A stretch of DNA of 10,215 nt from Nitrososphaerales archaeon TH526. Its GTDB lineage: Archaea; Thermoproteota; Nitrososphaeria; Nitrososphaerales; Nitrososphaeraceae. Each line of letters opens with the position of its first letter. Position 1 is the first letter of the stretch. Below are positions 3,251-10,215 of this stretch, piece by piece. The stretch spans positions 1 through 10,215 of the forward strand of contig JAATVR010000109.1 of assembly GCA_014523665.1 (NCBI GenBank), written 5' to 3'. Position numbers and translations under genes: made by a program. The notes beneath the pieces were generated by a model. It searched no databases. It was given only the letters and a program-made list of their open reading frames with translations, and had not been told where the DNA came from.

Positions 3251-4003
3251 TTATTCTGCTCCAAGTCTAGCTAGTTCTTCAAACGCTTCATCTAATTCTT
3301 TCAGTACATTACTGCGAAATCGAAAAAATTTATCGTCTTCCAACAGCAAACTCAGCATTCTATCATCTTCATGGTTCAGTCGGTCCACATGTTCAAGATC
3401 TCTATTCTTGAATATTCTCAAGTAGCGGAAATATAATCGTGTTAACCTGATCCCTAAATCAAATGCGAATGTTTTGAGATCGAATTCAAGTATTCCCGAA
3501 TACTTCTCTCTATCATGAGGGATCTTTGAAGATCTCATGGTCTCGATAGTACGTTTTGAGGTAACGCAGCATTTGTGCAAATAAACTGAAATTATGGTTC
3601 TGACTCGCGGACTCCAATTTTTCACGGTAGTTTCTTCCAAATATTGAAATAATAGTAGTTGGAGAATTACATTTTCGCAGTATTTCGAGAGTAATATGCC
3701 AGAAAAAACCTGATTCTCGCTCAGAATGTAAAATAACCCACAAGTGGTTAGTACGTAGTTTCGGCTGCCCCCTCTAAACCTGTTTTTATGGATCACCTCT
3801 ATCAAATTACGGTCTAGAAGAGCACTAAATTGCTTTTCAACCTCCGCACTAAATTGTTGCTGCCTTTTGAACCGGATAACCGAATGTATTCCTTCATTCT
3901 TATCATAGCGATCCATGAGCCTTAGCAATGAAGTTTTTTCCAGACTACTCAGCCCGGCCAGAGTACAATTGATCAATTGAGATATGTACTCAGCATAACT
4001 CAT
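3251..4003 (-). CDS. unknown protein with a probable winged-helix DNA-binding region
   Basis: I do not recognise a named family. Read from the ATG at 4003 it has 250 residues and no signal peptide or membrane segment. Residues about 50-95 look like a winged helix: a helix FSAEVEKQFSALLDRNLIEV, then a basic loop (IHKNRFRGGS) and a hairpin RNYVLTTCGLFYIL. This layout is common in archaeal MarR/PadR-like regulators. The rest is helical, with an aromatic and basic segment (RLTRLYFRYLRIFKNRD, 188-202) and an acidic C-terminal helix (ELDEAFEEL). The frame stays open upstream to a TTG at 4027, but a strong TATA box at 4031-4040 would leave that TTG untranscribed, so ATG 4003 is chosen. The zinc-finger gene 66 bp upstream on the same strand is another likely DNA binder. 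A regulatory role is inference. Confidence 0.68.
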   Translation of the reverse strand: MSYAEYISQLINCTLAGLSSLEKTSLLRLMDRYDKNEGIHSVIRFKRQQQFSAEVEKQFSALLDRNLIEVIHKNRFRGGSRNYVLTTCGLFYILSENQVFSGILLSKYCENVILQLLLFQYLEETTVKNWSPRVRTIISVYLHKCCVTSKRTIETMRSSKIPHDREKYSGILEFDLKTFAFDLGIRLTRLYFRYLRIFKNRDLEHVDRLNHEDDRMLSLLLEDDKFFRFRSNVLKELDEAFEELARLGAE

Positions 4004-4030
4004 GTTGTCGGATCGTATACAACCCAAGTT

Positions 4031-7724: not shown

Positions 7725-7845
7725 AACGACATTTTCAGAGCAATTTAGTATCATAAATCTTCAAAATTTGCTTTACACAGGAAATCCTGAACTGGTAATT
7801 GTGGCTAAAGATTCAATGTGTCTGAGCGTTACAGTCAAATATTAG
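7708..7845 (+). CDS. possible 45-residue protein overlapping the CPBP gene end
   Basis: A TTG at 7708 opens 45 codons to TAG 7843-7845, in a different frame from the CPBP gene and overlapping its last 17 bp. GAGGAGG (7691-7697) lies 10 nt before the TTG, the same spacing as the GGAGG before the CPBP gene, so translational coupling is plausible. The protein starts basic (KRKYRTTF) and continues with protein-like sequence (NLLYTGNPELVIVAKDSM). There is no signal peptide and no known family. It ends 29 bp before the tRNA. A frameshifted tail of the CPBP gene or a chance frame are alternatives. Confidence 0.38.
   Translation: MKRKYRTTFSEQFSIINLQNLLYTGNPELVIVAKDSMCLSVTVKY
7837..7843 (+). promoter_or_regulatory. 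TATA-like box for tRNA-Gln
   Basis: AAATATT lies 32-38 bp before the mature 5' end of the tRNA, the distance expected for an archaeal tRNA promoter with a short 5' leader. The match is weak and overlaps the end of the possible small ORF. Confidence 0.35.
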
Positions 7846-7884
7846 TCCTGGTTTATTGATCCACACAGCTCGGAAGCCCGGTCG

Positions 7885-7908
7885 AGCACGTCAGAAACGT
7901 GTGCCGAA
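7885..7908 (+). other. tRNA-Gln intron 1 (24 nt, between positions 10 and 11)
   Basis: CGGT (7879-7882) pairs with GCCG (7903-7906) as a 4-bp central helix. The bulges are CGA (7883-7885) and AAT (7907-7909), and the intron forms a 6-bp hairpin, GCACGT (7886-7891) with ACGTGT (7897-7902), loop CAGAA. Cutting after the second base of each bulge gives conserved G10. Outer-helix pairing is poor, so this is a relaxed motif; ends could move by a base. Confidence 0.72.
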
Positions 7909-7920
7909 TCTAGTGGCCAA

Positions 7921-7937
7921 ACTTAGTTGAGGGCTAG
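7921..7937 (+). other. tRNA-Gln intron 2 (17 nt, D-loop, between positions 21 and 22)
   Basis: GGCC (7915-7918) pairs with GGCT (7932-7935), with one G-U pair, as the central helix. The bulges are AAA (7919-7921) and AGG (7936-7938), and a short CTT/GAG hairpin closes inside. Cutting after the second base of each bulge leaves GGAT to complete a 4-bp D stem with GTCT. Confidence 0.68.
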
Positions 7938-7953
7938 GGATTTCAGGCTCTGG

Positions 7954-7969
7954 ATCTACAAGAAAAGAA
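7954..7969 (+). other. tRNA-Gln intron 3 (16 nt, canonical 37/38)
   Basis: A full bulge-helix-bulge is visible. The outer helix is the anticodon stem. CTCT (7948-7951) faces AAAG (7964-7967) with three pairs and one C-A mismatch. The bulges are GGA (7952-7954) and AAA (7968-7970), and an inner TCT/AGA hairpin has loop ACA. The cuts fall exactly at 37/38, the standard archaeal site. Confidence 0.78.
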
Positions 7970-8012
7970 ACCTGAGGACAGCAGTTCGAATCTGCTCCGG
8001 GCTACTCTTCAT

Positions 8013-9614
8013 TTACTGTTTTCTGGGTCCTGCTTTAATGACTTCCACCGGCATACTGCCAAATTTCTCGAAGTTTTTGACGAAGAGAAAAGCGAGTCTT
8101 TTAGCCGATTCTAGGTACTTTTGTTTGTCAGACCATGTGTTGATAGGATCAAGGATATAATCTGGAACACCAGGGCATGAAACTGGAATCTCCACATTGA
8201 ATATTTCGTGTCGTGTATACGAAACTTTTTCTAAATCGCCATTGACTGCAGCTTTCACCATGGACCTAGTGTGTTGAAGGTTCATCCTGCGTCCAACCCC
8301 ATAAGGTCCTCCTACCCATCCTGTGTTTATCAAATAGACCTTTGAATTATGTTCGCCAATTCTTTTACCAAGCATGTCTGCGTATTCTCTTGGTTTCAAC
8401 ATCATGAAAGGGGCGCCAAAACAATGAGAAAAAGTCTCTTGTGGTTCAGTGATGCCCCTCTCTGTGCCAGCTAACTTACTAGTATAACCGGACATGAAGT
8501 GATACATTGCGTGTTCTTTTGACAATCTTCCAATCGGCGGGAGGACCCCAAACGCATCTGCTGCAAGGAATATGATGACATCTGGATGATTCCCTATACT
8601 TGGTAAAACAGCATTTGGAATAAATTCAATGGGGTAGGCGACCCTCGTGTTTTCTGTTAACGACTCGTCATCAAAATCGGGTTCACGATTTTGGTCAAGG
8701 ATAACGTTCTCCATGACCGAACCAAATCTTATTGCATTCCAAATTTGTGGTTCCATAGATCTCTGTAAGTTTATACATTTTGCGTAGCATCCACCTTCAA
8801 AGTTGAAGATGCCATTTTTTGACCATCCGTGTTCATCGTCTCCAATGAGACGTCTCTCTGGATCAGCCGAAAGTGTCGTTTTTCCTGTGCCTGACAAGCC
8901 AAAGAAAAGAGCGGTCCTTCCATCTCTACCTATATTCGCAGAGCAATGCATAGGAAAAATATCTTTGAGAGGAAGCAGATAATTCATTACTGAAAACATT
9001 GATTTTTTTATTTCTCCTGCGTAGGACGTTGATCCAATTAGCACAAGGCGCTTCGTGAGATTGAGAATGATGAAGGTTTCACTTTTCGTTCCGTCCACTT
9101 CTGGGCAAGCTTGGAAATCAATTATAGAAAGTAATGTAAAAGATGGATTATGGCTTAGAAGTTCTGAAGGGGTTGGACGTATGAAAATCTGCATCGCAAA
9201 GAGATTGTGCCATGCATTATCTGTTATTGTCCTAATAGGGAGCCTGCTCTCTTTCTCTGCTCCAACGTATCCATCGAAGACAAAAGCTTCCTTTCCTTCA
9301 AGGGATCTTTTCATTCTATTGAAAATTTGATCAAACTTGTCAGGAGACATTGGATGATTTATTTTTCCCCAATCAACTGAATCATGTGTCAACCCATCAT
9401 CAACAATATATCGGTCATCAGGTGATCGGCCAGTAAACTTACCTGTTCTGACAGAGAGAGCCCCGGTTGTAGAGAGTTCCCCTTCGTGCCTATGAATGGC
9501 AGCCTCAATTAGTGATGGAGGAGGTAGGTTTCTGTGCAGCCTAGAGAATTTGAAACCTGCATCTTGCATCTGAATAACACATCTAAGATCTGATGCTGTT
9601 AAGCTGTCATTCAT
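8013..9614 (-). CDS. pckA: ATP-dependent phosphoenolpyruvate carboxykinase
   Basis: PckA converts oxaloacetate + ATP to phosphoenolpyruvate + CO2 + ADP (EC 4.1.1.49), the entry to gluconeogenesis, in the cytoplasm. The 533-residue length matches the ATP-type family. Landmarks: TGRSPDDR (61-68), YAGEIKKSMF (198-207) with the metal-binding Lys, PMHCSAN (221-227) with metal-binding His223, the P-loop GLSGTGKTT (239-247), IGDDEHGW (257-264), NTRVAYPI with Arg324, LAADAFGVLPP (350-360), SGYTSKLAGTE (375-385) and TGWVGGPYGVG (431-441). All key residues are present and there is no break. A TATA box, AAATAAATAT, lies 26-35 bp before ATG 9614. The gene is divergent from the J-domain gene and convergent with tRNA-Gln, only 8 bp apart. 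In an autotroph it would feed sugar synthesis from C4 acids. Confidence 0.97.
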   Translation of the reverse strand: MNDSLTASDLRCVIQMQDAGFKFSRLHRNLPPPSLIEAAIHRHEGELSTTGALSVRTGKFTGRSPDDRYIVDDGLTHDSVDWGKINHPMSPDKFDQIFNRMKRSLEGKEAFVFDGYVGAEKESRLPIRTITDNAWHNLFAMQIFIRPTPSELLSHNPSFTLLSIIDFQACPEVDGTKSETFIILNLTKRLVLIGSTSYAGEIKKSMFSVMNYLLPLKDIFPMHCSANIGRDGRTALFFGLSGTGKTTLSADPERRLIGDDEHGWSKNGIFNFEGGCYAKCINLQRSMEPQIWNAIRFGSVMENVILDQNREPDFDDESLTENTRVAYPIEFIPNAVLPSIGNHPDVIIFLAADAFGVLPPIGRLSKEHAMYHFMSGYTSKLAGTERGITEPQETFSHCFGAPFMMLKPREYADMLGKRIGEHNSKVYLINTGWVGGPYGVGRRMNLQHTRSMVKAAVNGDLEKVSYTRHEIFNVEIPVSCPGVPDYILDPINTWSDKQKYLESAKRLAFLFVKNFEKFGSMPVEVIKAGPRKQ

Positions 9615-9771: not shown

Positions 9772-9793
9772 GGGTCTGCCCGATTAATTAATT

Positions 9794-10215
9794 GTGTCCG
9801 ATTACTATGACGTACTGAACCTGCATCAATCGGCATCCCACGAAGATATTAAACGATCCTTTAGGCAGCTGGCGCTAAAACATCACCCGGACAGGAACAG
9901 AAACTCGGAAGCTTCCAGAAAAAAGTTTATGGAGGTTGTGGAAGCGTACGAAATACTATCGGATGACCAATCAAGGAAAGAGTATGATCGGACTTACAAC
10001 TATGAGGAGTTCCGCGTGAATCGAGAATGGACACCCCCTGCTGATTGGCAGCAGGTCTATAGCTATGAACATCTGAAGAGGGAAAACGATCGATCCCATT
10101 TGGCGGGAGGTATGTGGGATATTAGCGACAGAGCTAGCGGGAGCTTGTGGAAGGCTACATTACTTTTGTTTATGGGCCTATTGGGGTTGGTTGCATTCAT
10201 ATTATGGACTAGATA
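9794..10215 (+). CDS. membrane-anchored J-domain (DnaJ-like) protein, 3' end beyond window
   Basis: Reading from GTG 9794 gives 140 codons that run off the window. Residues 2-66 are a J domain: YYDVLNLHQSAS, helix II basic (KRSFRQLALKH), the HPD tripeptide (31-33), then FMEVVEAYEILSDDQSRKEYD. J domains stimulate the ATPase of Hsp70/DnaK through HPD. A polar linker rich in Trp, Tyr and Glu follows, then a hydrophobic helix at about 119-138 (LWKATLLLFMGLLGLVAFIL) near the window end. There is no Gly/Phe region or zinc-binding centre so far, so it is not canonical DnaJ but a type III, membrane-tethered J protein that could recruit DnaK to the membrane. The start is GTG, since TAA at 9785 closes the frame upstream and a TATA box sits at leaderless distance. 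The C-terminus is not visible. Confidence 0.88.
   Translation, partial: MSDYYDVLNLHQSASHEDIKRSFRQLALKHHPDRNRNSEASRKKFMEVVEAYEILSDDQSRKEYDRTYNYEEFRVNREWTPPADWQQVYSYEHLKRENDRSHLAGGMWDISDRASGSLWKATLLLFMGLLGLVAFILWTR

Follow-up and report, generated by a model that had tools for sequence, protein, structure and literature searches.

A tRNA-Gln(CUG) gene with three introns

The window, by which we mean the whole 10,215-nt stretch of DNA that was analyzed, carries a tRNA-Gln(CUG) gene at 7875-8004 on the + strand that is interrupted by three introns (Table 1). An earlier note, made by inspection of the letters, had proposed this gene, and parsing bore out its intron borders (24, 17 and 16 nt) and its 73-nt product. 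The BHB-like motifs are also as that note described them, with central helices of 4/4, 4/4 and 3/4 pairs for introns 1, 2 and 3, respectively. The spliced tRNA can form 7 acceptor, 4 D, 5 anticodon and 5 T pairs. In the lowest-energy fold of the 73-mer, the acceptor and T stems are present and the D and anticodon stems are absent, which counts against the assignment. Neither ARAGORN nor Rfam at the gathering cut-off detected the gene in the window, so the expectation that it is easily missed by annotation held for these, the two tools run; a lax tRNA model scored it at 18.8 bits (E 0.7).

Table 1. Features of the tRNA-Gln(CUG) locus and its surroundings (positions of the window)
Feature	Position	Strand	Description
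A+T-rich stretch, possible TATA element	7837-7844	+	AAATATTA; read from the sequence, putative
Alternative A+T stretch	7852-7857	+	TTTATT; read from the sequence
Leader stand-in strand	7867-7873	+	AGCUCGG; complement, with one G.U, of the 3′ acceptor strand (7997-8003)
Exon 1	7875-7884	+	tRNA nt 1-10; nt 5-8 (7879-7882, CGGU) double as a strand of the intron-1 BHB helix
Intron 1	7885-7908	+	Site 10/11, 24 nt; inner hairpin 7886-7891/7897-7902; GCCG 7903-7906 pairs with 7879-7882
Exon 2	7909-7920	+	tRNA nt 11-21
Intron 2	7921-7937	+	Site 21/22, 17 nt; GGCU 7932-7935 pairs with GGCC 7915-7918
Exon 3	7938-7953	+	tRNA nt 22-37; anticodon CUG at 7950-7952
Intron 3	7954-7969	+	Canonical 37/38 site, 16 nt; AAAG 7964-7967 against CUCU 7948-7951, 3/4 pairs
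Exon 4	7970-8004	+	tRNA nt 38-73; CCGGGCU 7997-8003 is the 3′ acceptor strand
ATP-type PEP carboxykinase gene	8013-9614	Opposite to tRNA gene	PF01293; its end lies 8 bases from the tRNA gene

Elsewhere in the window, a 258-aa reading frame on the - strand (3251-4027) had no Pfam match at E 0.001. A reading-frame start at 9793-10215, cut by the end of the window, resembles by eye a DnaJ-type J domain protein.

The host and its splicing endonuclease

The host is archaeal, as had been supposed from the letters. Its draft genome (G000, family f1) comprises 4.9 Mb in 833 contigs and is 96.6% complete with 5.3% contamination. The interrupted tRNA-Gln(CUG) pattern matched this genome once, and the intron-free pattern had 0 matches. 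Reading 45 host tRNA-model matches by eye (150 of 261 candidates scored) likewise yielded no second tRNA-Gln(CUG). The intact second copy that the earlier note proposed to look for was thus not found in the draft host genome, and we rejected the idea that the locus is a pseudogene or a duplicate of an intact gene because no other CUG gene was found there. The host tRNA-Gln(UUG), read by eye, contains intron 1 only. These two glutamine genes are the only host tRNAs read by eye that have an intron at 10/11.

Two PF01974 proteins are encoded in the host genome, each with N- and C-terminal endonuclease domains. One has its best match in 3p1z_B (E 4.1e-43), which we take to be a crenarchaeal catalytic chain. 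The other carries a proline at the alignment position of a histidine, presumably the catalytic His. Two such proteins, one with proline in place of histidine, fit the two-subunit endonuclease type that the available text of one paper reports for Thaumarchaeota (PMC4090602).

The three introns are conserved

When the 130-nt gene was used as a query against 61 genomes (the host and 60 relatives), 59 matched with E up to 1, and 36 of the 37 members of family f1 matched at E 3.1e-22 or better. All three introns occupy the same sites in 39 parsed genes, including that of the window; 38 of these belong to 11 genera of f1 and one to f14. Distinct CUG genes with intron 1 numbered 47, and 43 of them could be parsed fully, the remaining 4 of these 43 being f20 genes without intron 2. 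Intron removal left 73 nt with all four stems fully paired in every fully parsed CUG gene (43/43). The central helix of intron 2 has 4/4 pairs in 39/39 genes, and that of intron 3 has 3/4 pairs in 39/43 and 4/4 pairs in 4/43. Searches of 300 genomes of the class found the 21/22 intron pattern in 141, reaching other families, and the 10/11 pattern in 46; reversed-pattern controls for each gave 0 matches in 300 genomes. Because orthologues with the same three introns occur in 11 genera of f1 and the reversed controls had no matches in 300 genomes, the resemblance is more than chance, and we rule chance out.

The gene had also been called unusual, and this does not stand. A three-intron gene common to 11 genera of its family is no oddity, and the 21/22 pattern is found in nearly half of the class genomes searched. 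Noncanonical introns in Thaumarchaeota were moreover already published: the accessible part of the tRNAscan-SE 2.0 paper reports 107 of them and a thaumarchaeal intron model (PMC8450103).

The intron content of the CUG gene is not uniform. In genus g12, intron 1 is absent from 7 of 9 parsed genes. In the four CUG genes that were not fully parsed, the D-arm part differs, and three of them (L120, L123 and L222) seem by eye to have a D-arm intron at 24/25. The same placement at 24/25 rather than 21/22 was seen by eye in CUG genes of f2, f3 and f10 (those three along with L129, L130 and L263), which suggests a separate gain or movement of this intron. A further tRNA-Gln gene, L194 (G281), has an odd insertion near nt 12/13, outside the three sites.

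The intron-1 splice helix and the acceptor stem are mutually exclusive

Intron 1 interrupts the D stem after its first nucleotide. Its central helix is formed by tRNA nt 5-8 and the four nucleotides preceding the last two of the intron. Because nt 5-7 belong to the acceptor stem, this helix and the acceptor stem cannot form together. The helix has 4/4 pairs in all 80 intron-1 genes (65 CGGU/GCCG, 10 CGGU/ACCG, 4 CGGU/GCUG and 1 CCGU/GCGG, the last in L121), a count that is not free of selection because our parser required part of the intron-end motif. Searching by hand, we found no outer BHB helix for intron 1; the motif is a relaxed form of BHB that lacks this helix. Folding of precursors cut back to nt 1 gave the splice helix a mean predicted probability of 0.005 in 47 CUG genes and 0.09 in 32 UUG genes. 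The probability fell below 0.05 in 71 of the 80 genes, and 9 of the 80 reached 0.05 even so.

A strand complementary to the 3′ acceptor strand accompanies intron 1

The earlier note recognized the gene and its introns but overlooked the leader element at 7867-7873, which we regard as the most interesting part of the locus. This element could stand in for the 5′ acceptor strand. The corresponding strand is GUAGCUCG in most other f1 genera, GUAGCCCG or close to it in f20, and GCCCGG or GUCCGG in most UUG genes. L121 has AGCCCCG both in the leader and in its own acceptor, and in this gene, changes in acceptor and leader strand go together with a change in the intron helix (CCGU/GCGG).

A strict test for such strands, which asked for 6 or more contiguous pairs, no more than one of them G.U, within 16 nt of nt 1, was applied to 140 distinct genes of 109 genomes (187 parsed; identical ones counted once). 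These had been collected by pattern or BLAST searches. Unparsed ones were dropped, including L006, L113 (end cut off) and the odd L194, and the 5′ strand of L013 and L246 was assigned by a rule before counting. The strand was present in 79 of 80 intron-1 genes, which spread over nine families of the class, compared with 3 of 60 intron-free genes; shuffled leaders passed in 5% and 4%, respectively. When the distance was widened to 20 nt and the number of G.U pairs was left unlimited, the counts were 79/80 and 9/60, with shuffle expectations of 12% and 15%.

The same contrast is seen within genomes. Ten genomes (G015, G027, G032, G037, G039, G063, G078, G137, G213 and G312) have one intron-1 and one intron-free tRNA-Gln gene among those parsed, and the strict test found the strand in 10/10 of the former and 0/10 of the latter, although in G039 the intron-free gene does bear a copy further upstream. 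Among g12 CUG genes, the strand occurs in 2/2 with intron 1 and 0/7 without.

Outside the class, a complementary strand lies within 24 nt in 11/11 intron-pattern genes and 2/30 intron-free UUG genes, or within 16 nt in 9/11 and 1/30. In each of the 11, a tRNA whose acceptor stem is paired was recognized; six families are represented, with near-identical genes among them. The 30 controls are loci from other families, taken out of 89 genomes with a match. The looser pattern used across the phylum matched 13 of 250 genomes, and its reversed control matched 5 of 250. Because the sequences are related, all these counts overstate the number of independent cases. Within these limits, the 10/11 intron and a complementary leader strand are associated.

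One way to account for the copy is as a second 5′ splice site, in which its CGG would pair with the intron end to yield a tRNA with a different nt 8. Some UUG copies end in GUCCGGC or GCCCGGA directly before nt 1, as this would have it. However, most CUG copies in f1 read CUCG, which can make only a single pair with RCCG, and the spacing between the copy and nt 1 is not fixed, ranging from 0 to 9. We therefore rejected an alternative 5′ splice site in the leader for the CUCG-type CUG copies, which lack the pairing, and we rate it overall as the most improbable of the readings discussed here.

The leader strand appears to be kept for pairing

The link between copy and intron has exceptions in both directions. 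L023 has intron 1 and no copy, and three intron-free genes (L198, L247 and L263) pass the strict test. Three f4 CUG genes without intron 1 (L118, L119 and L198) carry a TAGCCCGG copy about 20 nt upstream, further out than usual in L118 and L119, together with a possible leader hairpin; this copy is perhaps a remnant of intron loss. In G480, an intron-rich and perhaps Pyrobaculum-like genome of the phylum, three tRNA-Ala-like genes have by eye an upstream copy of the acceptor strand. One of them, L356 (the same gene as L331), has a 10/11 intron and supports the link, and the other two, L340 and L348, have none and oppose it.

The copy might instead be a functionless scar of intron gain by partial tandem duplication. 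It directly resembles the 5′ acceptor strand and adjoins it, and its presence without an intron in some f4 genes and a few others is what a scar would lead one to expect. Yet a scar would hardly be retained in 79/80 genes across nine families, and none of the seven g12 CUG genes without intron 1 passes the strict test. The differences between copy and real strand also mostly preserve pairing: at positions 2-6, 45 of 48 are C to U, which keeps a G.U pair, and 3 lose pairing, compared with 59 of 61 that lose pairing at positions 1 and 7, in counts that include many related cases and that use the register giving the best pairing. The joint change in L121 points the same way. L331, a non-glutamine tRNA, has GGACCGG in its leader and the acceptor GGGCCGG/CCGGUCC, so that its copy, although not identical to the real 5′ strand, is the better partner of the 3′ strand. 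From the C-to-U bias and L331, we argue that the element is kept for pairing and is more than a mere duplication, and we consider a scar unlikely.

The leader strand may be transcribed

TATA elements lie about 26 nt from the transcription start. If the A+T-rich stretch at 7837-7844 is such an element, the start would fall at about 7867. Across genes, the upstream A+T peak is at -40 to -36 in intron-1 genes compared with -30 to -26 in intron-free genes. This outward shift of about 10 nt is what a transcript extended by roughly the length of one copy would give, and it suggests that the stand-in strand is transcribed.

A location at the transcription start, as the A+T peak would place it, is also what one would expect if the copy were a promoter or start-site element that acts in the DNA rather than in the RNA. 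However, its sequence tracks the acceptor of its own tRNA (L121, L331), and its presence tracks that of the intron. We consider a promoter element very improbable.

Predicted folding of the precursor

We modeled precursors with and without a leader. For transcripts begun at the copy, the mean probability of pairing between the leader and the 3′ strand was 0.79 in 46 CUG genes and 0.75 in 32 UUG genes, and the mean splice-helix probability was 0.28 and 0.61. When the same genes were trimmed to nt 1, the splice helix dropped to 0.002 and 0.04, and the untrimmed value was higher in 78/78 genes. The window gene gave 0.41 starting at the copy and 0.005 when trimmed. This comparison favors the stand-in role because the transcript start was chosen at the copy, and even then only 7 of 46 CUG genes exceed 0.5.

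With a 25-nt leader, the mean splice-helix probability was 0.18 (CUG) and 0.54 (UUG), compared with 0.09 and 0.22 for shuffled leaders. The native leader brought the helix to at least 0.05 in 59 of 80 genes and left it below 0.05 in 21. It added more than 0.05 over no leader in 33/47 CUG and 23/32 UUG genes, and one UUG gene loses. Native leaders lay above the median shuffle in 42/47 CUG and 27/32 UUG genes but above 95% of shuffles in only 14/47 and 16/32, and in a separate folding run, they fell below the shuffled value by more than 0.05 in 11/47 and 2/32. For the window, 11 of 200 shuffled leaders reached the native splice-helix value. L020 folds poorly into the stand-in arrangement.

The lowest-energy fold of window positions 7867-8006 combines pairing of the leader to the 3′ acceptor strand with the helix and hairpin of intron 1 and with the helices of introns 2 and 3. 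A slightly different 3′ end gives another lowest-energy fold, and the two pairings of the 3′ acceptor strand are about equal in probability (0.50 and 0.49). The full window precursor is no more stable than its shuffles (z -1.06).

The high predicted pairing of the leader with the 3′ strand, even where the CUG splice helix is weak, would also suit a device for timing RNase P, in which the copy would mask the true cleavage site until splicing has finished, instead of opening the splice helix. Such a device leaves unexplained the link of the copy to intron 1, whose helix shares nucleotides with the acceptor stem. Only 2/41 CUG genes without intron 1 pass the strict test, though many have other introns. 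We judge this reading improbable, although it is the least improbable of the alternatives.

A model for splicing of intron 1

We consider it probable that the stand-in leader strand holds the 3′ acceptor strand and thereby enables splicing of intron 1 in the three-intron tRNA-Gln(CUG) precursor. All three introns would be cut by the two-subunit splicing endonuclease. The intron-1 splice helix, made from acceptor nt 5-8 and the 3′ end of the intron, would compete with the acceptor stem. The leader would supply another version of the 5′ acceptor strand, slightly different in sequence, that occupies the 3′ acceptor strand by pairing and so leaves the real 5′ strand free to enter the splice helix. 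Once intron 1 is cut and the exons are joined, the real 5′ strand would displace the stand-in, and RNase P could then remove the leader. If this is correct, removal of intron 1 should precede 5′ trimming, contrary to Methanopyrus, where the available text has the tRNA ends trimmed before intron removal (PMC3695527).

We also lean, with less assurance, toward a broader form of this proposal. A surrogate acceptor strand in the leader, which swaps partners with the tRNA's own 5′ strand, may be a widespread cis-acting element in tRNA precursors of Thermoproteota that makes 10/11 introns spliceable and enforces splicing before 5′ maturation. If true, the model would account for an intron whose position puts its splice signal in conflict with the acceptor stem and would give the tRNA 5′ leader a structural role. 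It would also open the order of tRNA processing in archaea to direct test, with intron 1 predicted to be spliced before RNase P acts. The leader strand is, in addition, a signature that gene finders could use for such tRNAs.

Relation to known tRNA introns

The comparisons that follow refer to the accessible portions of the cited papers. The window gene resembles the multi-intron tRNAs of other archaea, such as those of Pyrobaculum, in its short introns and BHB-like helices and in the number and placement of the introns, of which a gene can have as many as three, one at 37/38 and the rest at other sites (PMC4390854, PMC8450103). It differs from them in that the intron-1 helix uses the 5′ acceptor strand and goes with a complementary leader strand. 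The split tRNAs of Nanoarchaeum, with their complementary leader and trailer (PMC4090602), are alike in that sequence outside the mature tRNA pairs into the splice substrate. Unlike them, the window gene would give one transcript, in which the leader pairs with an exon strand and not with the trailer of another half. D-arm introns are also present in Sulfolobus tokodaii and Methanopyrus (PMC4307357, PMC3695527), and EndA cleaved the Sulfolobus ones in vitro at their predicted motifs (PMC4307357).

Multi-intron archaeal tRNAs and noncanonical thaumarchaeal introns were thus known already. In the literature searched, which covered few subscription papers, we found no account of a leader strand taking the place of an acceptor strand, and within that scope, it is the leader strand with its proposed stand-in role that is new. 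The available text of a paper on Caldiarchaeum lists a multi-intron 'tRNA-Glu[CUG]' (PMC3293823). CUG is a glutamine anticodon, and this gene may belong to the same family as the window gene.
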